In this document: positions 3,458 through 33,000 of the stretch, piece by piece
Position numbering within the stretch: position 1 is the first letter of the stretch
Layout: each line of letters opens with the position of its first letter
Origin: Aquipuribacter sp. SD81
GTDB lineage: Bacteria > Actinomycetota > Actinomycetes > Actinomycetales > JBBAYJ01
Assembly: GCF_037153975.1 (NCBI RefSeq)
Contig: NZ_JBBAYJ010000032.1
Coordinates: 1-33,286 of the forward strand
Length of the DNA: 33,286 nt
Direction of reading: 5' to 3'
Notes under the pieces: model-generated
What the model was told of the DNA's origin: nothing
Seen by the model: the letters and a program-made list of their open reading frames with translations, nothing else
The model's database searches: none
Translations under genes and position numbers: made by a program

Positions 3458-3473
3458 GGTGTCGATGCGTCCG

Positions 3474-3479
3474 ACGGTA
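3474..3479 (-). promoter_or_regulatory. Candidate -10 box of the large GT2 gene
   Basis: TACCGT on the minus strand, 16 bases before the GTG at 3457. A transcript starting about 7 bases after it would carry a leader of only about 9 bases. No -35 is obvious. Confidence 0.35.
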
Positions 3480-3576
3480 GCCACGGCGCCCGCGACCGCG
3501 GGGGACGCCCCCGCTCGGGGCGCACGGGTGTCGTCGGGCCCGCGCGGGACGTCACGGTGGTCGGGTCCCGCCGCGT

Positions 3577-3596
3577 CCGCGGCCTCGTGGCCGCGG
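3577..3596 (-). terminator. Hairpin directly after the whiB stop codon
   Basis: A perfect 8-bp stem, CCGCGGCC / GGCCGCGG, with a 4-base loop begins one base after the whiB stop codon at 3598-3600. There is no T-run, as usual for very high-GC actinobacteria. It probably ends the whiB transcript and separates it from the codirectional GT2 gene. Confidence 0.5.
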
Positions 3597-3597
3597 T

Positions 3598-4095: not shown

Positions 4096-4198
4096 GACGT
4101 CCTCCTCGCCCCGGTGCTCGTCAGGCCCTCGCGCCGCCCGTCCACGGGCCCTGCTGTCCACGGGGGCCTGGCGGTCCGGACAGAACGACGACGTGGGA

Positions 4199-4228
4199 AT
4201 TACACGCGTGTCATCCGGGTGGTGTCAA
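4199..4228 (-). promoter_or_regulatory. Near-consensus primary-sigma promoter of whiB
   Basis: On the minus strand, -35 TTGACA (4223-4228) and -10 TGTAAT (4199-4204) are separated by 18 bases. It is the clearest two-box promoter I found in the window. Transcription would start near 4192. A perfect 10-base palindrome, ACACGCGTGT (4202-4211), overlaps the -10 and its upstream edge and is a possible operator. Confidence 0.75.
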
Positions 4229-4449
4229 GCGCGATCGTGCTATCCGTGATCGACACATCACCTACCGTGTGCGGCTCGACGCGGTCTGCGACGACACGTC
4301 CGGTGGGTCCGCGCCGGCGTGCGCTCGACCCCGGTCCCCGGTAAGGGCGCCTCCCCCGGGTCGTCGTCGGCGGGCCCGGGCACCGACCGCCGGCCCCGGC
4401 CTCCTCGACGCCGGTGGCCACCAAGAGCCCGGGCCCCGGCCCGGGACGA
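4229..4449. promoter_or_regulatory. Intergenic regulatory region between whiB and fbiA
   Basis: This is part of the 366-base gap between the divergent whiB and fbiA starts. Just upstream of the whiB -35 is an inverted repeat CGATC (4232-4236) / GATCG (4248-4252), a candidate binding site. The stretch 4221-4265 is clearly less GC-rich than its surroundings, as expected of a promoter or operator. From about 4270 to 4449 the sequence is GC-rich, and the only open frames are overlaps of longer chance frames. I see no gene there. Confidence 0.4.
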
Positions 4450-4455
4450 CACAAT
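4450..4455 (+). promoter_or_regulatory. -10 box of a leaderless fbiA transcript
   Basis: CACAAT followed by 6 bases and then the GTG at 4462, so the predicted transcription start coincides with the start codon. Confidence 0.5.
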
Positions 4456-4461
4456 GCGCCG

Positions 4462-6599: not shown

Positions 6600-6624
6600 C
6601 CCGGTAAGGGCCCCGGCCCGCTCG

Positions 6625-7614
6625 TCAGGAGCGCCCGCCCGAGCCCGCCGGGGTGTGGGTCGGCAGCGTGAAGCGGGGACCGCGCCGGGGCCGGGCGACG
6701 CCCGCGAGCTCGAGCAGGCGCTGCACGCGGTAGCGGTGACCGGCGTAGCAGTCGATGACCTCGGCGCACGCGTCGTCGTCGAGCACGTGCCCGGTGAGCG
6801 CCCACGTCACGTTCTTCGCGACGTGGTAGTCGTCGAAGCTGAAGGCGTCGGCGTCGCCGTGGGCGCGCTGCCGGACCTCCGCCGACGTCCAGCGACCCAC
6901 CCCCGGCAGGGTCCGCAGGGCCCGGTCGGCCTCCGCCGCCGCGCCGCCGAGGGTCGCCTCGAGGCGTCCCGCGACCCGCGCGGCCCGCATCACGACGGCG
7001 CTGCGGCGCCCCTCCACCCCCGCGCGCAGCCACTCCCACGTCGGCACCCGCAGCCACTGCGCGGGCGTCGGCGGCACGAGCATGCCCGCGGCCGGCCCAC
7101 CCTCGAGCGCGGGCGCGCCGGGCGCGGGCTCCCCGTAGCGGCGCACGAGCAGGCGCACCGCGCGACGGGCCTCCTTGCCGGTCACCACCTGCTCCAGCGC
7201 CGCCCACACGAGCGCCTCGACCACGGCCCGCGACCGGGGGGTCCGCACCCCCGGCCGGGCGCGCCACGCCTCCACGAGCAGCCGGTGCTCAGGCCGCGGC
7301 CGGAAGTCGGCGAAGCCGGGGCCGTCGCCGCCCTCGCCGCCGTCGTCGCGTGCCCCGAGCAGGTCGGGCACGCCGTCGAGCACCCACGCCCGTCCCGGGC
7401 CCCACGCCTCGGCGAGCACGAGGCCGAGCGGGGCGACGACCCGCACGTGGAGCAGGGCGGCGCCGTCGGGGGTCCGGGTGGCACGCCACAGCCCTTCGGC
7501 GCCGGCGCGGCGGTGCGAGGGGTCACCCGAGCCGCGCACGAGCGTGCCGAGCGTGCCGGCGAGGTCGACGGGGCGGCCGGGCCGCCACTCGCGGACCGCC
7601 CGCGCGTCGCTCAC
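6625..7614 (-). CDS. AlkA-type DNA-3-methyladenine glycosylase (HhH-GPD family)
   Basis: A 329-residue protein likely to remove alkylated bases from DNA in base-excision repair. The C-terminal half has the helix-hairpin-helix LPGVGRWT (236-243) followed by FSFDDYHVAKN (258-268). Asp262 corresponds to the catalytic Asp238 of E. coli AlkA, which sits in the very similar context LPDDYLI. The N-terminal half (Trp/Arg-rich, RPRPEHRLLVEAW) is less recognisable but fits the AlkA N-terminal domain plus linker in length. Four zinc-cluster cysteines as in MutY/Nth are absent, which agrees with AlkA. GTG 7614 overlaps the stop of the upstream membrane-protein gene by 4 bases, so this repair gene is translationally coupled to an envelope gene. 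No functional link between the two is evident. Confidence 0.85.
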   Translation of the reverse strand: MSDARAVREWRPGRPVDLAGTLGTLVRGSGDPSHRRAGAEGLWRATRTPDGAALLHVRVVAPLGLVLAEAWGPGRAWVLDGVPDLLGARDDGGEGGDGPGFADFRPRPEHRLLVEAWRARPGVRTPRSRAVVEALVWAALEQVVTGKEARRAVRLLVRRYGEPAPGAPALEGGPAAGMLVPPTPAQWLRVPTWEWLRAGVEGRRSAVVMRAARVAGRLEATLGGAAAEADRALRTLPGVGRWTSAEVRQRAHGDADAFSFDDYHVAKNVTWALTGHVLDDDACAEVIDCYAGHRYRVQRLLELAGVARPRRGPRFTLPTHTPAGSGGRS

Positions 7615-8609
7615 GTCCGGCCACCGGCGTCGGGCGGGCTGGCGGCGCGGTGGGCGCGGGACCGCCGGCGCTCCACGACGAGCGCGGCGCCGGCGAGCCC
7701 GAGGTCCGCCGCGGTCATGAGCACGCGCGACACGACGGCCACGAGCAGCGCGCGGCCCGGCGACATGACACCGGACAGCATGAGCACGAGGGCGGCCTCG
7801 CGCGCGCCCGCGCCCGCGGGGCTGATGACGGTGACGAAGCCGACGCACCAGGCCAGCGCGAAGGCCGTGACCCCCAGCACGACGAGGCGGACCGAGAGCC
7901 CGATGTCGCCGACCCGGGAGACGAGCACGACCGTCTGCGCCCCGATCGACAGCCACGACGCGAAGGCGAGGCCGGTGGTGCGCCAGGCCCCGCGGTGGCT
8001 GATGGTGTGCTCCAGGGGCGGGCGGCGCGCCAGCGCGAGGACGCGGGCCAGGACCCGGTTGAGGACCGGCGGCCACAGCAGCACGAGCAGCGGGACGACG
8101 AGCAGGGCCACCCACGAGTAGCCGCCCGGCAGCAGGTCCGGCACGAGCGCGAAGCCCGACACCCCGAGGACGAGGGCGGTCGCGAAGACCACGACGACGT
8201 GGACCACCGTGGCCGAGGCGGAGCGGCGGCGGGACACGCCGTGGTCGGCGGCGAGCTCGACCTGCGCGACGACGTGCCACAGGCTGCCGGGCAGGTACTT
8301 GCCGAGCTGGCCGACGAGGAACACGTGGGCGGTCGGGCCCGCCCCGAGCCGGCTGCCGAGGTCGGCGAGCACCGAGCGCCACGCCGCGGCCGACAGCAGG
8401 ACGTTGCCGACGGTGAAGACGAGCGCGAGCACGAGGCTGGCCGGGCCGAGGCGGCGGACGCCGAGCAGGAACTCGCGCCCGTCGAGGGCCAGCGCGACGG
8501 CCGCGAGCGCGACGGTGATGCCGAGGAAGCCGAGCCGGAACGCCCGGGAGCGCACGAGCGAGGACAGCCTTGCGAGCCTGCTGCCCCGCGACCGCCGACC
8601 CTGCTCCAC
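7611..8609 (-). CDS. YbhN/LPG-synthase-TM family membrane protein (first copy)
   Basis: A 332-residue polytopic membrane protein with about eight hydrophobic segments. GQLGKYLPGSLWHVVAQVE, the most conserved stretch of the UPF0104/LPG_synthase_TM family, lies about a third of the way in, and a glycine-rich SPAGAGAREAALVLML motif lies near the C-terminus. Relatives include the integral membrane half of lysyl-phosphatidylglycerol synthase (flippase activity) and AglD-like proteins next to glycosyltransferases. The soluble aminoacyl transferase domain of MprF is absent. The setting, directly downstream of a polyprenyl-phosphate glycosyltransferase, suggests transfer or flipping of a lipid-linked sugar. 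This is inference. GTG 8609 is chosen because GGAGG lies 4 bases upstream. A paralog is encoded at 16149-17180. Confidence 0.85.
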   Translation of the reverse strand: MEQGRRSRGSRLARLSSLVRSRAFRLGFLGITVALAAVALALDGREFLLGVRRLGPASLVLALVFTVGNVLLSAAAWRSVLADLGSRLGAGPTAHVFLVGQLGKYLPGSLWHVVAQVELAADHGVSRRRSASATVVHVVVVFATALVLGVSGFALVPDLLPGGYSWVALLVVPLLVLLWPPVLNRVLARVLALARRPPLEHTISHRGAWRTTGLAFASWLSIGAQTVVLVSRVGDIGLSVRLVVLGVTAFALAWCVGFVTVISPAGAGAREAALVLMLSGVMSPGRALLVAVVSRVLMTAADLGLAGAALVVERRRSRAHRAASPPDAGGRT

Positions 8610-8644
8610 TGCACCTCCGCGCGCGGCCGGTGCCCGTGGGCTGC

Positions 8645-9682
8645 TCAGGGACTGTCCCTCGAGCGGACGATGAGGTCGGCCAGCAGCGCCATCATGCCGA
8701 TGAGCAGCCCGCTCAGCAGGATGAGGACGGTGTTGTCGGCGAGGCTGAACAGCGCCGTGAACTGGTCGTAGACGAGCTTGGCGCCGCCGAGGACGAGCAG
8801 CCCGAGGGAGACCGGCAGCAGGACCCGCAGCGGGTCGAAGTACATGACCATGCGCAGCACCTGCAGCAGGTAGCGGTAGGCGTCGCGGAAGAACTTGAAC
8901 TTCGAGACCCCGGCGCGCTTCCGGTACTCGATCGGCACGTAGCGGATGTCGTGCTGGTTGGACAGGAACGAGATCGTCAGCGTCGTCACGCACGAGAAGC
9001 CGGGCGGGAGCAGCCGCAGGTACGGCAGCGCGACCTCCCGCCGGAAGGCCCGCAGCCCGGAGTTGAGGTCGGGGATGCGCTGCTTGGTGAGGGTCTCGGC
9101 GAACTTGCGGATGAACCACTTCGCGGGCACGCGGGCCCACTTGTGCGTGCCCTCCTCGGTGAGCCGGGCGCCCACGACCTGGTCGATGGAGGGGTCGTCG
9201 AGGACCGCGCGCACGAGCTCGGGGATGCGCTCGTTGGGGTAGGTCATGTCGGCGTCGGTCCACACGACGATCTCGCCGCGCGCCTCGCGCGTGCCGATGC
9301 GGCGCGCCGTCCCCGCCCCGCCGTTGCGGCGGAACGGCAGCAGCCGCATGCGGGGGAAGCGGTCCTGGGCGGCCCGCAGCACCTCGAGGGTGTCGTCGGT
9401 GGACGCGTCGTCGACGACGAGCAGCTCGTACGACATGCCGTCGGCCTCGAGGGCGGCGCTGATGCGCTCGACCTCGGCCAGCACGTGGTCCTGCTCGTTG
9501 TAGCAGGGCAGCACCACGGTGGCGGTGACCCGGCGGGGCCCGTCGTCGAACGCCTGCTCCACGGCGCGGCCCACGGCCTCCTCCACGGCACGCTCGACCG
9601 CGGGCCCCGGGGCGCCGGGGGTACCCGGGAGCACCTGGGGCGCGGTCGCGGGCGCGTGCGGGCCCGTCGTCGTCTCGTCCAT
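8645..9682 (-). CDS. Polyprenyl-phosphate glycosyltransferase (GT2, DPM1-like, with C-terminal membrane segments)
   Basis: A 345-residue protein. The GT2 domain begins with TVVLPCYNEQDHV (55-67) and has VVDDASTDDT (89-98), the metal-binding WTDADM (141-146) and a motif LNSGLRAFRRE further on, all typical of dolichol/undecaprenyl-phosphate sugar transferases. About 60 residues at the C-terminus carry two hydrophobic segments (VLLPVSLGLLVLGG and VLILLSGLLIGMMALLADL). It should make a polyprenyl-phosphate-linked hexose at the inner face of the membrane, for use outside. The sugar cannot be read from sequence. The N-terminal 50 residues are a disordered Pro/Ala/Glu-rich extension. ATG 9682 has TACGCT 9 bases upstream and no Shine-Dalgarno. 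It begins a -strand operon with the YbhN-like and AlkA-like genes (35-base gap, then a 4-base overlap). Confidence 0.9.
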   Translation of the reverse strand: MDETTTGPHAPATAPQVLPGTPGAPGPAVERAVEEAVGRAVEQAFDDGPRRVTATVVLPCYNEQDHVLAEVERISAALEADGMSYELLVVDDASTDDTLEVLRAAQDRFPRMRLLPFRRNGGAGTARRIGTREARGEIVVWTDADMTYPNERIPELVRAVLDDPSIDQVVGARLTEEGTHKWARVPAKWFIRKFAETLTKQRIPDLNSGLRAFRREVALPYLRLLPPGFSCVTTLTISFLSNQHDIRYVPIEYRKRAGVSKFKFFRDAYRYLLQVLRMVMYFDPLRVLLPVSLGLLVLGGAKLVYDQFTALFSLADNTVLILLSGLLIGMMALLADLIVRSRDSP

Positions 9683-9691
9683 CTCAGGAGC

Positions 9692-9697
9692 AGCGTA
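9692..9697 (-). promoter_or_regulatory. -10 box of the 8645-9682 operon
   Basis: TACGCT on the minus strand, 9 bases before ATG 9682. It shares a 42-base divergent intergenic space with the gene at 9725. Confidence 0.4.
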
Positions 9698-9711
9698 GGC
9701 GAGCGGGCTGG

Positions 9712-9717
9712 CAGTCT
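9712..9717 (+). promoter_or_regulatory. -10-like box of the TIGR03089 gene
   Basis: CAGTCT followed by 7 bases and GTG 9725, fitting a leaderless start. It is weaker than the TAGNNT boxes elsewhere. Confidence 0.35.
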
Positions 9718-9724
9718 CGTCGAC

Positions 9725-10405
9725 GTGAGCGCACCGACCCCCGTCCCGGCCCCCGTCGACGTCCCCCGGCTGCTGCACCTGCTGCGCGTCGAGCCGCAGC
9801 CGCGGCTCACGTGGGTGTCCCGGGACGGCGAGCGCGTCGAGCTGTCCGGACGCGTGCTCGTCAACTGGGTGGCGAAGACCGCGAACCTGCTCGGCACCGA
9901 CTGCGGGGTCGGCCCGCACGACGTGCTGCGCACCGCGCTCGGACCCGCCTGGCGGGCCCCGGTCATGTGGCTGGCCGCGTGGCACCTCGGCCTCGAGGTG
10001 GCCGCCCACGGCGCGGGTGACGTGCCCGCCGACGCGGACGCCGACGTGTGGGTGGTGCCCGAGGGCGCCGACGCGCCCGGCGGCACCCCCGACGTGCTCG
10101 TGGTGCCGCACGCGGCGCTCGCGCCCGCCGCGGCGGACACCCGCGTCGGCAGCCACGGCTGGGTCGACTACGCCGCGGAGGTGCGGCTGCACCCCGACGC
10201 GCTGCCCCCCGGCGAGGCGGCCGCGGCGGCGGCCCGGGCGGGCGAGGTGCGCGCGAGCGGCGGGGCGCGCCGGCTGCTGGACCCCGAGGCGGGACCGGAG
10301 GACGTGCTGGGGGTCTGGGCCGACGGGGGCTCCGTCGTGTGGCACGACGGCCTCGGCGACGACGCGCTCGAGCGTCTCGCCGCCCAGGAGCACGCGACCC
10401 CCTGA
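9725..10405 (+). CDS. TIGR03089 family protein (function unknown)
   Basis: A 226-residue, very Ala/Asp-rich cytoplasmic protein. It begins PRLLHLLRVEPQPRLTW and continues with GERVELSGRVLVNWVAKTAN and a stretch like GPAWRAPVMWLAAWHLGLEV. These match my recollection of the actinobacterial TIGR03089 family, which resembles the N-terminal part of AMP-forming acyl-CoA synthetases but is too short to be one (no P-loop-like SGTTG motif is present). The mycobacterial relative lies beside rmlD and wall glycosyltransferases, as here. No reaction is known to me. The start GTG is placed by the -10 box 7 bases upstream. It converges on the RmlD-like gene across a 161-base gap that holds duplicated hairpins. 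Confidence 0.7.
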   Translation: MSAPTPVPAPVDVPRLLHLLRVEPQPRLTWVSRDGERVELSGRVLVNWVAKTANLLGTDCGVGPHDVLRTALGPAWRAPVMWLAAWHLGLEVAAHGAGDVPADADADVWVVPEGADAPGGTPDVLVVPHAALAPAAADTRVGSHGWVDYAAEVRLHPDALPPGEAAAAAARAGEVRASGGARRLLDPEAGPEDVLGVWADGGSVVWHDGLGDDALERLAAQEHATP

Positions 10406-10433
10406 CGTCGCCGCCCCGCCCGCTCGCGTCGGG

Positions 10434-10552
10434 GGACGCCGCGCACGTCACCGTCGCGGCGACGGTGCGCGCCGTCCCACGACTGCGGCCGCCCCCGGGT
10501 CGGAGGACGCCGCGCACGTCACCGTCGCGGCGACTGCGCGCCGTCCCACGAC
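10434..10552. repeat. Duplicated ~48-base segment with hairpins between convergent genes
   Basis: Two nearly identical copies (10434-10483 and 10505-10552), both starting GGACGCCGCGCACGTC and ending GCGCCGTCCCACGAC. Copy 1 has a perfect 8-bp stem CACCGTCG / CGACGGTG with a 3-base loop. Copy 2 has lost two bases in the right arm, leaving a shorter stem. As both neighbours (9725-10405 + and 10567-11568 -) end here, it is probably a bidirectional terminator that was duplicated. Confidence 0.6.
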
Positions 10553-10566
10553 CGAGGGGGTGGCCG

Positions 10567-11568
10567 TCAGAGGTCGGCGAGGACCTCGTCGGCGGCCTCC
10601 TGCCAGCGCAGGCGCCACGGGCCGATCGGCTCGACGCCGAGGCGGCGCAGCGGCTGCGGGGCCAGCACCGACCAGCCCTCGGGCTCGACGGTGCCGCCGA
10701 GCACCTCGGCCCCGTGCCCGTCCGCTCCGCCTCGGTCGTGGTCGTCGCCGTGGTCGTGCTCGTGGTCCTCGCCGTGCTCGCGGTCCTCGGCGGGTCCGTG
10801 GTCGTGACCCTCCGGGCCGGTCCCGGACCCGTCCGGCCCGGCCGCCTCGACGGGCTCGAGCACGTCGAGGTCGCGCCCGAGCGACTCCCACACCTCCAGC
10901 GCCCAGCCGAAGCGGTCCGTCCAGCCCATCGCCGAGGCGGGGTAGACGCCCGCCGGCACCCGCTGCTCCAGCAGACCGACGACCACGCGGGCGACGTCGG
11001 CGGTCCAGGTCGGCTGCCCCTGCCACACCGCGGGCACGCGGAGGGCGTCGACCTCGCGGCCGAGGCGCGCGAGCCGGCGCGGCAGGCACTCGCCGTGCGC
11101 GCCGTACAGCCAGCCCGCGCGCACGACGACCGCGTCCGCGCCGCTGGCGCGCACCGCCCACTCCCCCGCGGCGTGCGCGCGGCCGTGCGAACCCACGGGA
11201 CGCAGCGGCGCCTCCACGGGCACCGGAGCGCCGGGGGCGTGACCGGCCACGACGTCGGCGGAGGAGACGTGCACGAGGCGCGCGCCGGTGCGGGCGCAGG
11301 CGGCCGCGAGCAGCTGCGCGCCCACCGCGTCGACGTCGAAGGCGTGGCCCGGGTGCCGGTGCGCGGCCTCCGGCGACAGCCCCGCCGCGTCGACGACGAC
11401 CTCGTGGCCGCCGACCGCGTGGTGCAGGGCGGTGGCGTCGTCCGGGTCGAGGGTACGGACGTCCAGCTCGGCCCGTCCCAGCCCGGTCACCTCGTGGTCG
11501 GCCTCGAGCAGCGCCGTGACGACGTCGGTCCCGAGCAGCCCCGAGGCACCGACGACGAGGACGTCCAC
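10567..11568 (-). CDS. RmlD-like SDR protein with altered active site and His-rich insert
   Basis: A 333-residue protein of the dTDP-4-dehydrorhamnose reductase (RmlD) family: VLVVGASGLLGTDVV (3-17) is the NAD(P)-binding turn, LVHVSSADVV (98-107) the Ser/Thr strand, and VRAGWLYG (149-156) follows. RmlD normally has YGxxK at the catalytic Tyr/Lys. Here the equivalent reads HGRAH (128-132), so both residues are His. A segment at about 250-288 is unlike the family and carries eight His among Asp/Glu/Gly (DREHGEDHEHDHGDDHD), which looks metal-binding. The final 45 residues (WSVLAPQPLRRLGVEPIGPW) return to a family-like ending. Normal RmlD activity is doubtful. It may be a regulatory or repurposed SDR, or the rhamnose step may be done elsewhere. 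GTG 11568 has TAGCCT 6 bases upstream. Confidence 0.75.
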   Translation of the reverse strand: MDVLVVGASGLLGTDVVTALLEADHEVTGLGRAELDVRTLDPDDATALHHAVGGHEVVVDAAGLSPEAAHRHPGHAFDVDAVGAQLLAAACARTGARLVHVSSADVVAGHAPGAPVPVEAPLRPVGSHGRAHAAGEWAVRASGADAVVVRAGWLYGAHGECLPRRLARLGREVDALRVPAVWQGQPTWTADVARVVVGLLEQRVPAGVYPASAMGWTDRFGWALEVWESLGRDLDVLEPVEAAGPDGSGTGPEGHDHGPAEDREHGEDHEHDHGDDHDRGGADGHGAEVLGGTVEPEGWSVLAPQPLRRLGVEPIGPWRLRWQEAADEVLADL

Positions 11569-23723: not shown

Positions 23724-25584
<1,861 letters not shown>

Positions 25585-25602: not shown

Positions 25603-27744
25603 TCAGCGGGGCGGCCCCGGCAGGGCCGCCACCGCCGTCCACCCCGGCGACCAGCGGGCGAGGCTGAGCGTGGCGAGCGAGGCCCCGGCGAGGTCGGAGA
25701 CCACCGCGCGCCCCGAGCCCCGGTTGTAGGTGAGGACCTCGCTGCGCTCGGTGCCGTCGGTCTCGACGTCGACCACCGAGTCCCAGCCGACGGACCAGCG
25801 GGCCATGGCGAGGGTGCTCGGCGAGGAGTCGGCGGCGAGGTCGGACACCACGGCACGCCCCGAGCCCCGGTCGTAGGTGAGGACCTCCGAGCGGATGGTC
25901 CCGTCGGCCTCGACCGCGACGACCGAGTGCCAGCCGGCCGACCACCTGGCCAGCGCCAGCGTCCCCAGCTGCGCCCCGGCGCCGAGGTCGGAGAAGACCG
26001 CCCGCCCCGAGCCCCGGTTGTAGGTGAGCAGCTCGGTGCCGGCCGTGCCGTCGGACTCCACGGCGGCGACCTGGTCCCAGCCGGTCGACCAGCGGGCCGT
26101 CGACAGGGTGCTCGGCGTCCCCGACGCCGACAGGTCCGACACGACGGCGCGGCCGGTGCGCCGGTTGTACGTGAGGACCTCGGTGCCCTCGGTGCCGTCG
26201 GCCTCCGCCGCGACGACGGCGTCCCAGCCCCGTGACCACGTCGCGCCCGCCGCTGCCCCGATCGAGCCGTCGGCGCCGACCTCGTGCAGCTGCGCGCGCC
26301 CCGAGCCCGCGTCGTAGGTGAGCACGGCGCGGCTCCCGCCCGGCAGCGTGACGGGGACGACGGCGTCCGAGCCGGTGGCCAGGGTCGCGCTCGAGAGCGT
26401 GACGAGCCCGCCGTCGAGGAGCGGGCGGGTGACGACGGCCCGACCACCGCGGGCGTCGTAGGTGAGCAGGTCCGTCGGCTGCGGGGGCACGGTGGTGGGT
26501 CGGAAGAGGTGGCTGCGCAGGCCGAGCGCGGTGCGCGCCTGCTCCCCGGTCACCTCGACGCGGCCGGCCGTGCCGCGGACGGTGAGCGTCCGGACGCGGC
26601 CGTCGAAGGGGCCGACCCCGTCCCCGGTCACGGTGAGGGAGAGGAAGTCGCCGACCGCCGGCCACGTCCGCTCGATGCGCTCCGGGGTGAGCGTCACGCT
26701 CCAGCGGGAGTAGGGGTTGCGCCCGTCGGCGTCGTCGTAGGGGTCGAGGCGGGTCGCCCAGCCGTTGCTGCCGTTGGTGACGCCGCCGTTGCTCGAGCTG
26801 AACTCGGTGCGCACGACAGCGGTCCCCCGGCGCACGACCCGGTCCCGCGTGGCGTCGACCGCGGCCCGCACCGAGGCGACCTCGTACGGCGTCACGGTGC
26901 CCGCGGCGCTGGTCCGGCTGACGCCGCGGTACACCTGGCACTGCGTGGTGTCGAGCACGTCGAAGTGCGTCGCACCCTGCGAGCAGCGGGAGTGCGCGTA
27001 CGAGCGTGCGGCGACGGCCTGCGCCTGCAGCGCGGCGGCTGGCCACGACGAGGGCATCTCGGCGCCGACGACGCTGTAGAGGTACTGCTCGAAGGGCAGG
27101 GTGTTGACGAGGTCCGCGGAGCCCGTCCCGGTGCCGACGAGCGACAGGGTCCCCCGGTAGCGCTGCACCGAGCCGTCGCTGCGCAGCACGCCGACGGCGT
27201 CGGAGTCGGTCGCCACGACGACGGGCCCCGGGACCGAGGCGGGCCACCCGGTCGGGGTGCGGTACGTGCCGGCGGAGCGCACGGTCACCTCGAACCCGCC
27301 GCTCACCCGCCGCACGCGGAGCCGGTCGCCGACGGTGTCGACGCGGAGGGGGGTCCCGTCGGCGCCGTCGCGCACGGTCGACCCCGCCCCGAGCGGGAAC
27401 GTCTGCGTGCTGCCGGAGCCGACCTTGACGCGGATGCTGCCCCGCGACTGCGTCGCGAGGTCGTCGCCCGGGTAGTAGAAGGCGACGATCTGCGCGACGG
27501 ACTGCCCGGCGAGCGCACGGCCGTAGGCGCCGTACTGGCTCATGCCGCGGCCGTGGCCGAAGCCGGCACCCTCGAGCACGACGTCGCCGTCGACCGCGGA
27601 CGCCGGCGCCGCGAGGGCTCCCGGCACCAGCACGCCCACGAGCGCCGTCACGAGGGCGGTCACGACGGCCGCGAGGACCCGGCGGGGGGCCGAGAGGCCC
27701 CCGCCGGTCGCCGGTCGGGCGACGCGCGTGGTGCGTGTGCGCAT
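25603..27744 (-). CDS. Secreted SpoIID/LytB-domain protein with six C-terminal propeller-like repeats
   Basis: A 713-residue exported protein. The signal peptide covers residues 1-50 (basic start, LAAVVTALVTALVGVLV core, cut likely after ALAAPASA). GFGHGRGMSQYGAYGRALA (61-79) and the catalytic region LPFEQYLYSVVGAEMPSSWP (216-235; Glu229 equals Glu88 of B. subtilis SpoIID) with LQAQAVAARSYAH identify a SpoIID/LytB domain, a lytic transglycosylase acting on glycan strands stripped of peptides. FSSSNGGVTNGSNGWATR (315-332) is also family-like. In Firmicute SpoIID the GHGxGMSQ motif is at the C-terminal end; here it comes first. Residues 424-713 are six 49-residue repeats. Tyr recurs at 429, 477, 526, 575, 624 and 673, with RWSxGWDxV strands between. 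The same array ends the upstream amidase. The ATG lies 5 bases after the amidase stop, so the two genes form one operon. Confidence 0.9.
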   Translation of the reverse strand: MRTRTTRVARPATGGGLSAPRRVLAAVVTALVTALVGVLVPGALAAPASAVDGDVVLEGAGFGHGRGMSQYGAYGRALAGQSVAQIVAFYYPGDDLATQSRGSIRVKVGSGSTQTFPLGAGSTVRDGADGTPLRVDTVGDRLRVRRVSGGFEVTVRSAGTYRTPTGWPASVPGPVVVATDSDAVGVLRSDGSVQRYRGTLSLVGTGTGSADLVNTLPFEQYLYSVVGAEMPSSWPAAALQAQAVAARSYAHSRCSQGATHFDVLDTTQCQVYRGVSRTSAAGTVTPYEVASVRAAVDATRDRVVRRGTAVVRTEFSSSNGGVTNGSNGWATRLDPYDDADGRNPYSRWSVTLTPERIERTWPAVGDFLSLTVTGDGVGPFDGRVRTLTVRGTAGRVEVTGEQARTALGLRSHLFRPTTVPPQPTDLLTYDARGGRAVVTRPLLDGGLVTLSSATLATGSDAVVPVTLPGGSRAVLTYDAGSGRAQLHEVGADGSIGAAAGATWSRGWDAVVAAEADGTEGTEVLTYNRRTGRAVVSDLSASGTPSTLSTARWSTGWDQVAAVESDGTAGTELLTYNRGSGRAVFSDLGAGAQLGTLALARWSAGWHSVVAVEADGTIRSEVLTYDRGSGRAVVSDLAADSSPSTLAMARWSVGWDSVVDVETDGTERSEVLTYNRGSGRAVVSDLAGASLATLSLARWSPGWTAVAALPGPPR
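25606..26475 (-). repeat. Six 49-codon repeats of the SpoIID-type protein
   Basis: In-frame repeats of about 147 bases. The last four are very close even at the DNA level (GAGCCCCGGTTGTAGGTGAG recurs on the plus strand), suggesting recent internal duplication or homogenisation. Unit pattern: E-V/L-L-T-Y-N/D, GSGRAVVSDL, then RWSxGW and VEADGT. Confidence 0.85.
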
Positions 27745-27749
27745 CGGGA

Positions 27750-29870
27750 TCACCTGATCGTCCTGGTCCCCCCGGACTGCGTGACGTCGGTGGTGACGAT
27801 ACGCCCGCTCCGGCTGTTGTAGGTGAGGATCTCCGAGCCGGGGGTGCCGTCCACCTCGGTCGCGACGACGCGCGACCAGCCGGTCGACCACGAGGCGAGG
27901 TTCACGGTGCCGGTGCGGCCCGTCGAGGCGATGTCGGTGAGGACCACGCGGCCGCTGCGGCTGTTGTACGTCAGGAGCTCGGAGCCGGGCGTGCCGTCGA
28001 CCTCCAGGACGCTCACGACGTCCCAGCCCGGGCTGAAGCGCTGCTCGCGCAGCGTCGCGGAGCCCGTGCCGCGGGACAGGTCGACGAACAGGTGGCGTCC
28101 GGTCGTGGGGTTGTACACCGACAGCTCCGAGCCCGTCCGGCGGTCGACGTCGACGACCTGCAGGTACGTCCAGCCCGGGGACCACGCGCTCTCGCGCAGG
28201 GTGCGGGTGCGCGTGCCCTCGAGCTTCGTCACGAGCTGGCGGCCGGTCGCGGCGTCGTAGACGAGCAGCTCGGACCCGGACCTGCCGTCGACCTCGACGG
28301 CGAGGACGCGCGTCCAGCCCTTCGACCACCGCAGGTCGGCGTCCACGCTCGTCGCACCGTCCGCGGCGAGGTCGTGGACCAGCGCCCGGCCGGAGGCCGC
28401 GTCGTAGACCAGCACCTCGTCGCCGGCGGAGCCGTCGAGCTCGGCGGGCACGACCGAGTCCATGCCCGTCGGCCACGAGGAGCGCGCGAGGACGCTGAAG
28501 GCACCCGTCGTCGTCTGGTCGTAGACGACGGCCTGCCCGGTGGCCCGGTCGTAGGCCAGCAGCTCGGTGCCGGCGGTGCGGTCCGCCTCGACGGGCACGA
28601 GGGTCTGCCCGACGGTGGCGCCGCCCGCGAAGGCCGCGGCCGTGCTGCGGATCGCCGGCATGCTCGACACGAGGTTGCGGCCGGGGCAGGCGGTGAGGCC
28701 CACGTCGCGGTGGGCGAAGACGCGCGGCAGGGACACCCGCGTCCCGGAGGAGTAGCGCGAGGTGCCGCCGGCGGAGGTGAGGCTCACGGTGCCCGTGGCC
28801 GGGGTGCCGAAGGCGCCGAGCTTCCACCCGATGACGCGGCCGATCGTGGTGACCATCACCGAGGGGGCCGAGGCCGTCTCGTAGTTGCCGAGGGCGGACA
28901 CGCCCATCGTGCGGTCGTTGAAGCCGCCGGCGTGGGCGCCGCGGACGGCGCGGGTGATGCCGCCGAAGCGGCCCTCGAACACCTGGCCGTACTTGTCGAC
29001 GAGGAAGTTGTAGCCGACGTCGCACCAGCCGAGCGAACCCGTGTGGTACGCGTAGATGCCGCGCACGATGCCGGCGCTCTCCGACCTCGAGTAGCTGTTC
29101 GTCCCGGCGGTGTGGTGGACCGTGGCCGCCACGAGGTCCTTGGAGTACGACGGGGTGCAGCGGCGGCGGGACTCGTCGGCCCCCCACGCCGCACGGCTGA
29201 TGATCGTCGGGCGGGTGGTGAAGGCCTCCGACGCGGTGATGGCCTGCTCGGTCTCGACGAGGTCCGCGGGGGTCTCGCCGGGGTCGATGGTCACGGCGTT
29301 GATGTCCTCGGGCAGCCGGCCCTCGCTCGTCACGACCCGCACCTGGACGGCGTCGGCGCCGTCGGTGACGAGGGGCTCGGTGCCGTCGACGCCGGCCGCG
29401 AGGCGCGCCTCCTCGGTGCCGGCGTCCGGGCCGCCGTCGTTGCGCTCCAGGGCCGTCCACCCCGTCCAGCCGTCCGCCTCCCGCAGGCGGGCCTCGACGG
29501 TCACCGTGCCGGTGTCCTGCTCGTCGGTCTCCCAGGTGACGCCCATGACGGAGAACTCGTCGGTGGGGATGACGCCGGTCTGGAAGGTCGTGGGGTCGAC
29601 GGTGAGCAGCGACGTCCCGGACGGCTCGACGGACGGCTCGATGGACGGCTCGGCGGACGGCTCGGCGGACGCCTCGGTGGACGGCTCGGCGGACGGCACG
29701 GCGGACGCCTCGGCCGACGGCGCGACGGGCTCGAGCTCGGCGGCCAGCGACACGGTGCTCACAGCCGCCTGCACGCCGGGGGCGGGCAGGGACACCACGT
29801 CGAAGACGAGGAGACCTCCGACCATCGTCGTGGTGGCGAGGGCGGCGGTCAGCCGGCGGAGGTGCGTCAT
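27750..29870 (-). CDS. Secreted PGRP/Amidase_2-type N-acetylmuramoyl-L-alanine amidase with six C-terminal repeats
   Basis: A 706-residue exported protein. A signal peptide (1-36, ending LPAPGVQA) is followed by a Ser/Glu/Pro/Ala linker (51-85), then a domain with VMGVTWETDEQDTGTVTVEAR and W-G-W motifs seen in actinobacterial PGRP-type proteins, and then the amidase at about 218-415. IISRAAWGAD begins it. ATVHHTAG (249-256) and FAHRDVGLTACPG (385-397) supply the zinc ligands His252, His387 and Cys395. GIYAYHTGSLGWCDVGYNFLVD and GGFNDRTMGVSALGNY are core PGRP strands. It should cut the amide between muramic acid and L-alanine. Residues from about 424 are six 49-residue repeats (Tyr at 440, 489, 538, 586, 635, 684). 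ATG 29870 is preferred over ATG 29891 because GAAGGA lies 5 bases upstream. Confidence 0.92.
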   Translation of the reverse strand: MTHLRRLTAALATTTMVGGLLVFDVVSLPAPGVQAAVSTVSLAAELEPVAPSAEASAVPSAEPSTEASAEPSAEPSIEPSVEPSGTSLLTVDPTTFQTGVIPTDEFSVMGVTWETDEQDTGTVTVEARLREADGWTGWTALERNDGGPDAGTEEARLAAGVDGTEPLVTDGADAVQVRVVTSEGRLPEDINAVTIDPGETPADLVETEQAITASEAFTTRPTIISRAAWGADESRRRCTPSYSKDLVAATVHHTAGTNSYSRSESAGIVRGIYAYHTGSLGWCDVGYNFLVDKYGQVFEGRFGGITRAVRGAHAGGFNDRTMGVSALGNYETASAPSVMVTTIGRVIGWKLGAFGTPATGTVSLTSAGGTSRYSSGTRVSLPRVFAHRDVGLTACPGRNLVSSMPAIRSTAAAFAGGATVGQTLVPVEADRTAGTELLAYDRATGQAVVYDQTTTGAFSVLARSSWPTGMDSVVPAELDGSAGDEVLVYDAASGRALVHDLAADGATSVDADLRWSKGWTRVLAVEVDGRSGSELLVYDAATGRQLVTKLEGTRTRTLRESAWSPGWTYLQVVDVDRRTGSELSVYNPTTGRHLFVDLSRGTGSATLREQRFSPGWDVVSVLEVDGTPGSELLTYNSRSGRVVLTDIASTGRTGTVNLASWSTGWSRVVATEVDGTPGSEILTYNSRSGRIVTTDVTQSGGTRTIR
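27753..28601 (-). repeat. Six repeats of the amidase, same family as in the SpoIID-type protein
   Basis: Repeats of 48-49 codons with the pattern S-E-L-L-x-Y, SGRxxxxDL, WSxGW and VEVDG. The array starts with the last strand of a unit (LVPVEADRTAG) and ends before it (SGGTRTIR). This staggered ending is typical of closed beta-propellers, where the N-terminal strand completes the last blade. Confidence 0.8.
29620..29715 (-). repeat. 12-base tandem repeat coding the Ser/Glu/Pro/Ala linker
   Basis: Eight units of the type GACGGCTCGGCG (plus strand), coding Pro-Ser-x-Glu-like tetrapeptides that probably form a flexible spacer between the signal peptide and the catalytic part of the amidase. Confidence 0.8.
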
Positions 29871-30254
29871 CACGATCCTTCGTTTCGTCATCGGCGTGTC
29901 GCGTGTGACTCAAGTGACCAGTGGTGCTAGTGGGACGCGAGGGATGCTAACCGGTCACCACACGCGAGCGTCTAGGTGCGTACCGTCAATAGGTCGGGCG
30001 CCCGACGGACTCACTTGAGCCGTCAGGGCGCCGCCGCTACCACGTCCGCGCTCCGTCGCAGGTGAGGCGCGACGGCGCGTACGGGTGAGCGGCGGACCTC
30101 GTCCGGGCGGCCGTCCCCCGTCCGGACGAGCGGCACGACGGAGCGCGTACGGCCGTCCGGGCGAGCCCACGGCCTCGACGGGGCGTACGAAGCCGGAGGG
30201 GCCACGAAGCCGTCCGGGCCGTGGGGCCGGCCCGGGTGCGGGCGCGCCACGGAG
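29871..30254. other. Intergenic region upstream of the amidase operon
   Basis: No convincing gene. The part 29880-30020 is less GC-rich and should hold the amidase promoter. TTAGCAT on the minus strand (29946-29952) is a possible -10, with an AT-containing leader of about 70 bases before ATG 29870. Inverted 9-base copies CTCAAGTGA (29909-29917) and TCACTTGAG (30011-30019) frame this stretch and are candidate regulator sites. From 30060 to 30254 the sequence is GC-rich with loosely repeated GGCCGTCCGGGCG-like motifs. Open frames there are low-complexity and look like chance. Confidence 0.5.
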
Positions 30255-30352
30255 CAGCCGGGACGGGGCAGCCGGGACGGGGCAGCCGGGACGGGGCAGC
30301 CGGGACGGGGCAGCCGGGACGGGGTGGCCGGGACGGGGCAGCCGGGACGGGG
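30255..30352. repeat. 14-base G-rich tandem repeat, seven units
   Basis: Five consecutive perfect copies of CAGCCGGGACGGGG, one with TG for the first CA, then one more perfect copy. The remnant TGGCCG follows. It is intergenic, 70 bases beyond the end of the acyl-CoA dehydrogenase gene. Each unit has two G-runs (GGG and GGGG), so any two neighbouring units meet the simple rule for a G-quadruplex on the plus strand. Confidence 0.9.
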
Positions 30353-30421: not shown

Positions 30422-31567
30422 TCAGCGCAGGAGCGAGCGCCCCATCACGAGCCGCTGGACCTGGTTCGTGCCCTCGTAGATCTGCGTGATCTTCGCGTCG
30501 CGCATCATGCGCTCGACGGGGTGGTCGGACACGTAGCCCGCCCCGCCGAGCAGCTGCACGGCGTCGGTCGTCACCTGCATCGCGACGTCGGAGGCGAAGC
30601 ACTTGGCCGCGGCGCCGAAGAAGCCGAGGTCGGCGTCGTCGCGCTCGCTCTTCGCCGCGGCGACGTACACGAGCTGCCGGGCGGCCTCGAGCGTCATCGC
30701 CATGTCGGCGAGCATGAACTGGATGCCCTGGAACTCCGCGACCGCGCGGCCGAACTGGCGGCGCTCCTTGACGTAGTCGCGGGCGTAGTCGAGCGCCCCC
30801 TGCGCGATGCCGACGGCCTGCGCCCCGATCGTGATGCGCGTGTGGTCGAGCGTGCGCAGCGCGATCCTCAGCCCCTGGCCCGGCTCGCCCACGAGGCGGT
30901 CGCCCGGGATGCGGCAGCCGTCGAACAGCAGCTCGCGGGTGGGCGAGCCCTTGATGCCGAGCTTCTTCTCCTTCTCCCCGAAGGTGAACCCCGGGTCGCC
31001 CTTCTCCACGACGAAGGCGCTGATGCCGCGGGAGCCCGCGTCGGGGTCGGTGACGGCCATGACCGTGTAGAACTCGCTGACGCCCGCGTTCGTGATCCAC
31101 GACTTCTGCCCGTCGAGCACCCAGTCGTCGCCGTCGCGGCGGGCGCGGCAGCGCATGGCCGCGGTGTCGGAGCCGGCCTCGCGCTCCGACAGCCCGTAGC
31201 TGAAGCCCTCGCCGCGGGCCAGGCGCGGCAGGTAGCGCGCCTTGACCTCCTCGGACCCGGCGAGCAGGACGGGCATGGACCCGAGCTTGTTGACGGCCGG
31301 GACGAGCGAGCTCGAGGCGCACGCGCGGGCGACCTCCTCGATGACGAGGCACACCTCGAGCGCACCGGCGCCGACGCCGTCGTAGGCCTCCGGGACGTGC
31401 GGGGCGTGGAAGTCGCTGGCGACCAGCGCGTCGTGCGCCTCCTGCGGGAAGCGGGAGTCGCGGTCGACCTCGGCGGCGTACGGGGCGACCTTGTCCGCCA
31501 CGACCGCGCGCACGGCCTCCTGCAGGTCCCGCTGGTCCTCGGTCAGGGTGTAGGCGTCCTCGCTCAC
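30422..31567 (-). CDS. Acyl-CoA dehydrogenase (FadE25-like)
   Basis: A 381-residue FAD enzyme that oxidises acyl-CoA to enoyl-CoA in fatty-acid or branched-chain degradation. Motifs: VPEAYDGVGAGALEVCLVIEE (58-78), YGLSEREAGSDTAAM (124-138, flavin and substrate loop), GQKSWITNAG (153-162), RRQFGRAVAEFQ (269-280) and QIYEGTNQVQR (362-372), where Glu365 is the catalytic base as in Glu376 of MCAD. Length is typical. GTG 31567 is set by TAGCAT 7 bases upstream; a longer reading to 31630 would cross that promoter. Mycobacterial fadE25 lies near the rmlD/TIGR03089/GtrA genes, so this placement is probably ancestral. The true substrate is not readable. Confidence 0.95.
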   Translation of the reverse strand: MSEDAYTLTEDQRDLQEAVRAVVADKVAPYAAEVDRDSRFPQEAHDALVASDFHAPHVPEAYDGVGAGALEVCLVIEEVARACASSSLVPAVNKLGSMPVLLAGSEEVKARYLPRLARGEGFSYGLSEREAGSDTAAMRCRARRDGDDWVLDGQKSWITNAGVSEFYTVMAVTDPDAGSRGISAFVVEKGDPGFTFGEKEKKLGIKGSPTRELLFDGCRIPGDRLVGEPGQGLRIALRTLDHTRITIGAQAVGIAQGALDYARDYVKERRQFGRAVAEFQGIQFMLADMAMTLEAARQLVYVAAAKSERDDADLGFFGAAAKCFASDVAMQVTTDAVQLLGGAGYVSDHPVERMMRDAKITQIYEGTNQVQRLVMGRSLLR

Positions 31568-31574
31568 GCGGTCG

Positions 31575-31580
31575 ATGCTA
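31575..31580 (-). promoter_or_regulatory. -10 box of leaderless acyl-CoA dehydrogenase gene
   Basis: TAGCAT on the minus strand, 7 bases before GTG 31567. Confidence 0.55.
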
Positions 31581-31645
31581 CGCCCGCCGGTTACTCGCCG
31601 GTAACCCCGTCGCGGCCTCGGCACGGGCACGACCGCGGTGGCCTG

Positions 31646-31659: not shown

Positions 31660-33000
31660 GTGCGTATCTCTGTCATCGGTTGCGGGTACCTGGGGGCCGT
31701 GCACGCGGCGTGCATGGCCGAGCTCGGCCACGACGTCGTCGGCATCGACGTCGACGAGCGCAAGGTCGAGCTCCTGTCGGCCGGGAAGGCGCCCTTCTAC
31801 GAGCCCGGCCTGCCGGAGCTGCTCGAGCGCGTCGCCGGCACCGGGCGGCTGCGCTTCACCACCGACATGGCCGAGGCCGCGGACGCCCAGGTCCACTTCG
31901 TGTGCGTCGGCACCCCGCAGCGCAAGGGCGAGTACGCCGCCGACCTCACCTACGTCGACGCGGCGGTCGACGCCCTTGCCCCGCACCTGCGCGGCACCGC
32001 CGACGCCCCCGTCCTCGTCGTCGGCAAGTCGACGGTGCCCGTCGGCACCGCCGCCCGTCTCGCCGACCGCGTGCAGGAGCTGCTGCCGGAGGGCGGGCAC
32101 GCCCTGCTCGCGTGGAACCCGGAGTTCCTGCGCGAGGGCTTCGCGGTCCAGGACACCCTCACCCCCGACCGGTTCGTCTACGGCCTGCCCGACGGCGACG
32201 CGGGTGCGACCGCCAAGGCGCTGCTCGACGAGGTGTACGCGACCCCGCTCGGGGCCGGCACGCCCCTCGTCACCACGGACTACGCGACCGCCGAGCTCGT
32301 CAAGGTCGCCGCGAACTCCTTCCTCGCGACCAAGATCTCCTTCATCAACGCCATGGCCGAGGTCTGCGAGAAGGTGAACGCCGACGTCGTCGCCCTCGCC
32401 GACGCCATCGGCCACGACGCGCGCATCGGGCGCCGCTTCCTCAACGCCGGCCTCGGGTTCGGCGGCGGGTGCCTGCCCAAGGACATCCGCGCCTTCATGG
32501 CGCGCGCGGGCGAGCTCGGCGTCGACCAGGCGCTGACCTTCCTGCGCGACGTCGACGACATCAACATGCGCCGCCGCCAGCGCATGGTCGAGCTGACCCG
32601 GGAGGTGTGCGAGGGCTCCCTCCTCGGGCGCCGCATCGCGGTGCTCGGCGCGGCCTTCAAGCCCAACAGCGACGACATCCGCGACTCCCCCGCCCTCAGC
32701 GTCGCCGCGCAGCTGCGGCTGCAGGGCGGTCACGTGACCGTCTACGACCCGCAGGCGGTCGAGAACGCCGCCCGGGCCTGGCCCGACCTCCGGTTCGCGG
32801 CGAGCGCCGACGAGGCGGTCGCCGGTGCCGACGTCGTCCTGCTGCTCACGGAGTGGCAGGAGTTCCGCGACCTCGACCCCGTCGCTCTCGGCGAGCAGGT
32901 GGCGCACCGGCGCCTGCTCGACGGCCGCAACGCGCTGGACCCGGCGACGTGGCGGGCCGCCGGCTGGACGTACCGGGCCCTCGGGCGCCCGCGAGGCTAG
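31660..33000 (+). CDS. ugd: UDP-glucose 6-dehydrogenase family
   Basis: A 446-residue cytoplasmic enzyme that oxidises UDP-glucose to UDP-glucuronate in two NAD-dependent steps. ISVIGCGYLGAVHAACMAE (3-21) binds NAD, VGTPQRKGEYAADLTYVD (83-100) and STVPVGTA (124-131) follow, WNPEFLREGFA (152-162) carries the catalytic-loop Glu, ELVKVAANSFLATKISFIN (212-230) holds the active-site Lys/Asn, and GFGGGCLPKD (266-275) contains the catalytic Cys271. The C-terminal VLGAAFKPNSDDIRDSPA is the UDP-binding part. Other family members act on UDP-ManNAc, UDP-GlcNAc or GDP-mannose. The overall pattern favours UDP-glucose but does not prove it. It supplies a hexuronic acid for the envelope glycan. The GTG start is fixed by the -10 box. 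Confidence 0.93.
   Translation: MRISVIGCGYLGAVHAACMAELGHDVVGIDVDERKVELLSAGKAPFYEPGLPELLERVAGTGRLRFTTDMAEAADAQVHFVCVGTPQRKGEYAADLTYVDAAVDALAPHLRGTADAPVLVVGKSTVPVGTAARLADRVQELLPEGGHALLAWNPEFLREGFAVQDTLTPDRFVYGLPDGDAGATAKALLDEVYATPLGAGTPLVTTDYATAELVKVAANSFLATKISFINAMAEVCEKVNADVVALADAIGHDARIGRRFLNAGLGFGGGCLPKDIRAFMARAGELGVDQALTFLRDVDDINMRRRQRMVELTREVCEGSLLGRRIAVLGAAFKPNSDDIRDSPALSVAAQLRLQGGHVTVYDPQAVENAARAWPDLRFAASADEAVAGADVVLLLTEWQEFRDLDPVALGEQVAHRRLLDGRNALDPATWRAAGWTYRALGRPRG

Follow-up and report, generated by a model that had tools for sequence, protein, structure and literature searches.

A secreted amidase and a secreted SpoIID-type protein, encoded side by side in Aquipuribacter sp. SD81 and ending in the same type of tail, probably form a two-enzyme module that cuts the cell wall at one and the same wall component and serves in remodelling, with both activities predicted from sequence. 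The pair lies in a stretch of 33,286 nucleotides that was analysed as a whole (the window). In the proposed mechanism, the PGRP-type zinc amidase would strip stem peptides from peptidoglycan, and the circularly permuted SpoIID domain, acting as a lytic transglycosylase, would cut the bared glycan strand. In this scheme both enzymes are secreted proteins, presumably made from a single transcript, and their shared propeller-like tail would keep them at the same wall component, with the product of the amidase lying where SpoIID sits. The ligand of the tail may be a wall glycan, as suggested by neighbouring nucleotide-sugar genes, and the job of the pair would probably be wall remodelling where such polymers attach, or in growth and division.

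The original prediction had placed the two genes next to each other with five bases between them in an envelope-glycan setting, and this is correct: both are on the minus strand (Table 1), and the window contains nucleotide-sugar and glycosyltransferase-type genes, namely RmlB-, RmlD- and GMD-type genes (two of the last), UDP-glucose dehydrogenase, GT2, GT4, GtrA and DegT. The shared tails, the circular permutation, the recurrence of the pairing and the fusions described below go beyond that prediction. Third-position codon G+C is 0.98 in both frames, like coding sequence here, and both proteins have N-terminal hydrophobic stretches. The open amidase frame extends from 27750 to 29891 on the minus strand, with position 29870 as its second in-frame ATG. 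Because AAGGA precedes this ATG by five bases and no comparable site was seen ahead of the first, the start giving 706 residues is the better one. An acyl-CoA dehydrogenase gene precedes not only this amidase gene but also that of the second PGRP amidase of the genome. A sporulation module was ruled out: a SpoIIP profile, positive on the B. subtilis control, had no match in the genome (96.7% complete), and the single SpoIIM-family protein is encoded on another contig than the pair. A phage lysis cassette was likewise ruled out, as no phage record matched the SpoIID protein of the window and the Pfam-named neighbours are glycan, metabolic and regulatory genes.

Table 1. Positions of the features discussed, in window coordinates.
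Feature	Position	Strand	Remark
RmlB-like dTDP-glucose 4,6-dehydratase, convergent neighbour	24595..25584	+	GDP_Man_Dehyd 1.9e-71, Epimerase 5.1e-64
SpoIID/LytB-family gene, secreted putative lytic transglycosylase, 713 aa	25603..27744	-	circularly permuted catalytic domain (as modelled)
SpoIID tail, six repeats	25606..26484	-	homologous to those of the amidase tail (44% identity)
PF08486 core of SpoIID protein	26833..27123	-	putative catalytic Glu229, codon 27058-27060
GFGHGRGMSQYGA block, residues 53-100 of SpoIID protein	27445..27588	-	N-terminal here, C-terminal in Bacillus/Clostridium SpoIID
Gap from amidase stop codon to SpoIID start codon, 5 bases	27745..27749	-	
Amidase gene, secreted predicted PGRP/Amidase_2 N-acetylmuramoyl-L-alanine amidase, 706 aa	27750..29870	-	alternative ATG 29891 gives 713 aa
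Amidase tail, six 48-49-residue repeats	27753..28622	-	probably beta-propeller
Amidase_2 domain of amidase	28680..29126	-	PF01510 match in genome search
Acyl-CoA dehydrogenase, upstream of amidase gene	30422..31630	-	
UDP-glucose/GDP-mannose dehydrogenase	31660..33000	+	

The assignment of the second protein to the SpoIID/LytB family, with Glu229 as its key residue, was borne out. It matches PF08486 (E 2.7e-26, 92.5 bits against a cut-off of 23) and TIGR02669, SpoIID_LytB (E 5.6e-48, 164.2 bits against 83.3); its score of 101.3 bits with TIGR02870, the equivalog for stage II sporulation protein D, is under the cut-off of 234.75, and it is thus not a member of that group. Glu229 is invariant in 38/38 aligned SpoIID domains and likewise in 25/25 of another set. 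The motif around the catalytic Glu of SpoIID is given as GVVxxEMP/S in the available part of PMC6934232; the window protein reads SVVGAEMP, in which S replaces the first G and the Glu is kept.

In the canonical order, the GHGxGMSQYGA block is C-terminal, whereas in the window protein it is N-terminal. By phmmer against 4rwr, residues 213-414 match 63-267, and residues 53-100 match 273-321. The structural model aligns with 5i1t (Z 15.5, 210 residues) and 4rwr (Z 11.6, 191 residues), so that the protein is, as modelled, a circularly permuted variant that keeps the SpoIID fold. Foldseek with the entire model had returned unrelated propellers and was uninformative because these were attracted by the low-confidence tail; SpoIID was found in the later comparison. 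A plain motif regex for permutation left 76 of 235 ORFs as "motif missing" and contradicted the profile at L131, and a profile-order test on the 235 ORFs was used instead. By this test, the permuted order is present in 43 of 44 named actinobacterial ORFs, and all 37 assignable ORFs of Bacillota, Cyanobacteriota and three other phyla are unpermuted.

Both proteins of the window end in six repeats of 48-49 residues, and the shared tail is probably a beta-propeller: the amidase tail, modelled at low confidence (pLDDT mostly 50-70), is mostly beta, and propellers ranked after PGRPs in a Foldseek search with the amidase. The tail was not assigned to a known Pfam family, with only sub-threshold matches to PT and Fve, that to PT falling outside the tail. 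PA5033_fam (NF052506) matches the amidase tail with E 5.2e-26, but its 91.1 bits are below the cut-off of 100; with tail scores of 91.1 and 17.9 bits we regard the repeat as related and do not count it as a PA5033 member.

The pairing recurs well beyond the window. The order to which the window belongs contributed 135 SpoIID places; at 48 of them, spread over 11 family codes, an amidase is encoded in the fetched stretch, where about 0.5 would be expected; search profiles were made from the relatives' own domains, and distant amidases may escape them. The other 87 places lack an amidase of this kind in the fetched stretch, so SpoIID can evidently act without a linked one. Glycan genes are present in 19 of 47 paired and 8 of 87 unpaired stretches of the order (Fisher p 3e-5, relatedness ignored). 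Among all 235 SpoIID ORFs, an amidase is encoded nearby in the fetched stretch for 63 (amidase first 30, SpoIID first 16, convergent 6, divergent 5, fused 6); the pair is thus found in every orientation as well as fused, and its linkage outlasts rearrangement. The six fused ORFs, from two family codes (f16, and f24 for L244), all have the order amidase-linker-SpoIID; the linker is of CWB2-like or LGFP type except in one ORF, where it is a short stretch of low complexity. Two sets of loci give no frequencies because of how they were chosen: L083-L161 comprise the 80 best (79 distinct) among at least 536 confirmed relatives, and L244-L260 are 17 places hand-picked for size of contig and family. 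The original prediction would have been refuted by rare adjacency of the two genes; the survey indicates common, though not universal, pairing.

Partner tails are matched. In 40 of 41 testable pairs they fall into the same cluster, compared with a mean of 11.4 and a maximum of 22 in 10,000 shuffles of partners, although the clusters are broad, since single linkage merges CWB2 tails with another type and also FG-GAP subtypes. When each family and cluster was represented by a single pair, 22 of 23 were matched (shuffled mean 5.8, maximum 14), and direct phmmer homology between partner tails was found in 36 of 41. The argument rests on this unsupervised test because the initial tail labels came from seeds picked after the tails were seen. 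L243, on a contig nearly repeating that of L242 from the same genome, was kept in the linkage, cluster and glycan counts and left out of tail labelling and tree contrasts; the tailless second SpoIID of L114 was left out of both and of the cluster test. Matching is not complete, in that 14 of the 56 unfused pairs combine an amidase tail with a SpoIID tail that is absent or shorter than 60 residues, and one shows the reverse. Tree contrasts of tail class yielded too few cases to weigh, at most two starred independent pairs among the classes listed. In one genome from the genus of the window (G002), both partners bear DUF4214 and the window tail has no match; two others (G000 and G001) show the reverse.

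Linkage and matched tails would suit an activator just as well as a second cutter, and it was proposed for LytB with LytC that the SpoIID-type partner enhances the amidase; for the pairs described here we consider this unlikely. The available text of PMC10653849 lists LytB as not hydrolysing peptidoglycan, and according to that of PMC7176660 LytB alone causes minute wall degradation and LytC with LytB exceeds either alone. In one assay a SpoIID without catalytic activity still enhanced SpoIIP, an effect that proteins of C. difficile failed to reproduce (both in the part of PMC6934232 available). The invariance of the catalytic Glu in all 38 aligned domains argues for a cutting partner, as do reports, again from partial texts, that SpoIID domains of Waddlia, B. 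subtilis and C. difficile are active on glycan (PMC6635528, PMC6934232, PMC10653849). The distinction between second cutter and enhancer becomes testable because natural fusions, including L063, L078 and L244, hold both domains in one chain.

It is also conceivable, though quite improbable in our view, that the two proteins are independent autolysins encoded in one transcription unit and marked with a surface tag used throughout the genome, the tail match reflecting the house tag of the lineage without joint action. LGFP is present on ten ORFs of genome G048, and window-type repeats are present in at least 10 reading frames of G001; the tail is thus a general surface tag in some genomes, which weakens its meaning. 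In many cases, moreover, a tail resembles the corresponding tail in a relative at least as well as that of its own partner (57% within the pair L033/L034 compared with 74% and 67%). Constant gene conversion between partner tails was rejected as a general explanation; a recent copy of the tail between partners is clear in Blastococcus (L092). Against a mere house tag, the repeats were found in the window genome on three proteins only, the two partners and one further PGRP amidase, and only the two partners had CWB2 matches in G645, compared with five ORFs in its relative G624. The fused ORFs and the linkage in every orientation also favour joint action.

By its residue set, the first protein is an Amidase_2/PGRP-family zinc amidase with predicted activity. 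It matches PF01510 with E 6e-11 and PGRPs by phmmer with a best E of 9.5e-17, and its predicted fold resembles PGRPs (Foldseek, best E 2.2e-10). His252, His387 and Cys395 of the 706-residue protein, named in the original prediction and taken by us to be the zinc ligands, are all present and, together with the presumably catalytic Tyr287 and Thr393, invariant in 12/12 aligned amidase domains. Animal PGRPs, several of which are non-catalytic, are the top structural matches, but the invariance of these five residues makes it most improbable that the amidase is a binder of wall polymer or scaffold like those receptors, with SpoIID alone cutting.

If the two-enzyme reading is true, the widespread SpoIID-type proteins of Actinomycetota, encoded in 220 of the 396 genomes sampled from the phylum and with no assigned role found in the literature, would gain a concrete partner and a mechanism, and the matched tails would be a handle for finding the wall ligand. 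A broader picture is possible but doubtful: across Actinomycetota, such pairs may be address-coded scissors, in which a lineage-specific, lectin-like tail on both blades reads the wall glycan of the cell itself, for which adjacent genes often provide the synthesis. Any change of tail type would then affect both blades, and the permuted SpoIID, of early origin in the phylum, would be specialised for work beside or fused to an amidase.

Among known proteins, actinobacterial LGFP amidases such as those of the mycobacterial Rv3811 type combine a PGRP amidase with wall-binding repeats. The window amidase shares this architecture with a different type of tail. In Rhodococcus opacus and Nocardia rhamnosiphila (L139, L159) an LGFP amidase gene is divergent to SpoIID, with LGFP-class tails on both, whereas the window pair is head to tail. 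The amidase-then-transglycosylase logic is that of SpoIIP-SpoIID(-SpoIIM), in which SpoIID cuts denuded strands after the amidase (PMC6635528 and PMC6934232, in part); these are, however, sporulation proteins with the canonical SpoIID order in solved structures, and the window genome lacks a SpoIIP match. Joint action outside sporulation, as proposed here, is described in the available text of PMC6635528 for AmiA and SpoIID of Waddlia/Chlamydia, without mention there of an operon or matched tails. The same text describes Waddlia SpoIID as a septal protein that cooperates with AmiA in vitro and that bound peptidoglycan of E. coli but not of B. subtilis. For this SpoIID, lytic transglycosylase activity is reported on unstripped peptidoglycan and muramidase activity on stripped strands, and a strict order of steps thus need not hold for every SpoIID.

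It seems that the LytC/LytB idea has a large, differently built counterpart in actinobacteria, many of which have such a pair. LytC carries the same wall-binding repeats as LytB. Similarly, the partners of the window bear homologous tails (44% identity) with putative wall binding, which are not CWB2; CWB2 is present on both partners in three other actinobacterial pairs (L114, L224, L238). As far as the available texts go, LytC and its activator LytB share one operon in B. subtilis (PMC7176660), and lytC, lytB and lytA are placed between the tua (teichuronic acid) and tag (teichoic acid) genes (PMC8753576). The window pair resembles them as a secreted amidase and SpoIID-family protein in a probable single operon, judged from the 5-base same-strand gap, with a presumed non-sporulation role. 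The differences are that LytC is an Amidase_3, that the window member of the SpoIID family, to which LytB also belongs, is permuted (families of LytC and LytB from PMC10653849), and that the three wall-binding domains of LytB, loss of which largely lowers its surface display and deposition on the recipient's wall, follow the signal peptide (PMC7176660), whereas the window tails are C-terminal and propeller-like. With LytC/LytB of Bacillus and AmiA/SpoIID of Waddlia in print, the novelty that the original prediction saw in a pair outside sporulation does not hold; its two-step wall-cutting module stands as the best reading of a pair that recurs and fuses. The pair is best read as an actinobacterial, tag-matched counterpart of the LytC/LytB and AmiA/SpoIID idea.

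The predicted adjacency of an amidase gene and a SpoIID-family gene is borne out by coordinates and family matches, with a spacing of 5 bases between the two. AAGGA lies close upstream of the amidase start at 29870, the start that reproduces the residue numbering of the original prediction. The active-site residues named there are present and invariant: His252, His387 and Cys395, as well as Tyr287 and Thr393, in all 12 amidase domains compared, and Glu229 in all 38 SpoIID domains compared. The predicted amidase structure resembles PGRPs (Foldseek, best E 2.2e-10), and the SpoIID model matches SpoIID of C. difficile (5i1t; Z 15.5, 210 residues, rmsd 2.5) and of B. anthracis (4rwr; Z 11.6, 191 residues, rmsd 3.2).

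Coordinates of the gene pair and of features discussed with it
Feature	Location	Positions	Strand	Family match or content
PGRP-type amidase	window	27750-29870 (alternative start 29891)	minus	Amidase_2 PF01510, E 6e-11
SpoIID-family protein	window	25603-27744	minus	PF08486, E 2.7e-26; TIGR02669, E 5.6e-48
Acyl-CoA dehydrogenase	window	30422-31630	minus	
Tandem array	window	30249-30352		14-base unit, 7.4 copies
Second PGRP amidase	L267 (G000:C3:147500-167000)	8016-10262		
Acyl-CoA dehydrogenase	L267	within 6525-7958		
SpoIIM-family membrane protein	L274 (G000:C39)	9045-9566		
Amidase-SpoIID-SpoIID	L114 (Cellulomonas persica)	3110-11164		
Amidase-SpoIID pair	L092 (Blastococcus haudaquaticus)	7197-12427		

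Residues 213-414 of the window SpoIID align with 4rwr 63-267, and residues 53-100 with 4rwr 273-321. This reversed block order indicates that the GHGxGMSQYGA block moved from the C to the N terminus; by alignment, the SpoIID domain is circularly permuted. A profile-order test covered 235 SpoIID ORFs. Of the 44 from named Actinomycetota loci, 43 were permuted and the remaining one is a fragment; the SpoIID of the sole Chloroflexota MAG was permuted as well. The 37 assignable ORFs of Bacillota (17), Cyanobacteriota (17), Krumholzibacteriota, Nitrospinota and Spirochaetota (1 each) were all canonical; L152, placed in Cyanobacteriota with a record titled Rhodococcus, is truncated by a contig end and stands outside the 37. 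The order sample gave 129 permuted, 5 canonical and 1 unassigned among 135 ORFs, and 17 hand-picked phylum places gave 15, 1 and 1. Canonical SpoIID occurs in a small number of the order or phylum genomes (L065, L067, L070, L071, L206, L256), in some cases beside a permuted one in the same genome (G006, G019, G024). We found no report of this permutation in open-access full texts, a coverage outside which most subscription papers lie; a passage of one review mentions "several variations in domain architecture" (PMC6934232).

Of 99 relatives, 47 encode PF08486 (53 places); at order level the count is 126 of 297 genomes (135 places), and at phylum level 220 of 396. Around the 135 order places, including the window itself, stretches mostly of 16-18 kb (shorter at contig ends) were searched with profiles made from catalytic domains. 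An amidase was found at 48 places, two of them near-identical contigs from one genome, across 11 family codes and five times as a single fused ORF, against roughly 0.5 expected by chance; the predicted pairing thus recurs. The other 87 stretches were without an amidase; in some of these genomes, G090, G063 and G015 among them, one lies at a distance of about 10-26 kb. Among all 235 SpoIID ORFs, 63 had an amidase in the stretch (amidase first 30, SpoIID first 16, convergent 6, divergent 5, fused 6), two of them, both in L114, sharing one amidase; none was found in the stretches of the 46 ORFs scored canonical or fragmentary. Pairs occur in Cellulosimicrobium cellulans, Kribbella, B. haudaquaticus, C. 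persica, Georgenia (9 kb separation), Rhodococcus opacus, Nocardia rhamnosiphila and an Acidimicrobiales MAG.

Six repeats of 48-49 residues form the C-terminal tail of each window protein, and the two tails are 44% identical. Their nearest named relative is the NCBIfam family PA5033 (91.1 and 17.9 bits, under the cut-off of 100). The amidase tail is predicted to be mostly beta with modest model confidence, Foldseek ranking beta-propellers behind PGRPs; the SpoIID tail model is of poor quality. Within the own genome, three proteins carry window-type repeats (E up to 0.001), the third being another PGRP amidase, located on contig C3 (L267), with its tail behind a Pro/Thr linker. An acyl-CoA dehydrogenase lies upstream of it on the same strand, as in the window, where a tandem array lies within the long gap between the two genes. 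The L267 block looks like a duplicate of this two-gene unit without the SpoIID gene.

Tails of at least 60 residues occur on both partners in 41 of 56 separate pairs. Unsupervised clustering (single linkage, E 1e-6) placed partner tails together in 40 of 41 (exception L038), although clusters are broad, CWB2 tails sharing one with another beta type; shuffled partners gave a mean of 11.4 and a maximum of 22 in 10,000 shuffles. When each family and cluster was represented by a single pair, 22 of 23 matched (shuffled mean 5.8, maximum 14). Partner tails matched directly in 36 of 41 pairs (phmmer, E < 1e-3), and classes from hand-picked seeds agreed in 38 of 39, with L053 differing, L038 not classable and L243 omitted as a repeat. 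Pfam-named classes include LGFP (L033), FG-GAP_3 (L083), CWB2 on both partners (L114, on the first SpoIID only) and DUF4214 (L043, SpoIID partner under the Pfam cut-off). Seven of the eight pairs of genus g15 were examined (L033, L034, L163, L164, L165, L168, L170), and all seven have a third LGFP-bearing frame, 413-546 codons long, between the two genes; a Pfam search of the L034 frame found LGFP repeats and no catalytic domain.

The B. haudaquaticus tails are identical at 1275 of 1281 bases and, on this identity, are a recent copy between neighboring genes. In G002, of the window's genus, both partners carry DUF4214, which has no match in G000 or G001, and the window-type tail has none in G002. 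Its amidase clusters with that of the window in a quick tree (SH-aLRT 90), and its SpoIID clusters with that of L043, another DUF4214 bearer (SH-aLRT 100), groupings that we read as a re-pairing in which the tail match was kept. Elsewhere the match says less about the pair: in G048 ten ORFs bear LGFP (46 matches), in G001 at least ten frames bear window-type repeats (15 matches), and in these two genomes the tail is a secretome-wide house tag. G645 has CWB2 on the pair alone, but G624 has it on five ORFs. In 14 pairs a tail is limited to the amidase, and in one to SpoIID. The amidase tree (39 pairs) shows 12 changes of tail class and the SpoIID tree (40 rows including L252) shows 9, with too few supported independent contrasts for a statistical comparison.

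Four loci (L063, L064, L221, L226) encode a single chain of amidase, CWB2-like linker and SpoIID; the L064 linker, left unassigned by class search, is so termed from near identity to that of L063. Two further fusions have an LGFP linker (L244, of a different family code) and a short Thr/Arg-rich linker (L078). In five of six fusions, one tail-like linker would then serve both catalytic domains.

The window's glycan genes are of RmlB, RmlD, GMD, UDP-glucose dehydrogenase, GT2, GT4, GtrA and DegT type. Relatives of seven of them occur in 19 of 47 paired versus 8 of 87 unpaired order stretches, window excluded (Fisher p 3e-5, relatedness ignored). SpoIIP had no match in the own genome, which encodes one SpoIIM-family membrane protein (L274).

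The strongest new facts are the SpoIID permutation, the amidase-SpoIID fusions and the matched tails. We infer the pair's cutting mechanism from homologues, and we found no paper on an actinobacterial amidase-SpoIID pair in literature listings limited to open-access papers. The original reading as a two-step cutting module is partly supported: recurrence of the paired module favors it, but its novelty outside sporulation does not stand, since LytC/LytB and AmiA/Waddlia SpoIID precede it. According to the portions of these sources covered here, B. subtilis LytC and LytB are encoded in a common operon, LytB alone degrades walls minutely and more so together with LytC, and LytB lacking its CWB domains shows lower surface display and deposition (PMC7176660). 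Their genes lie between tua and tag genes (PMC8753576); LytC is an Amidase_3 enzyme, and LytB is tabulated as not hydrolysing peptidoglycan (PMC10653849). Cyanobacteria are described as following the same two-step logic (PMC11114229), and SpoIID of Waddlia partners AmiA outside sporulation and is active on unstripped peptidoglycan too (PMC6635528).
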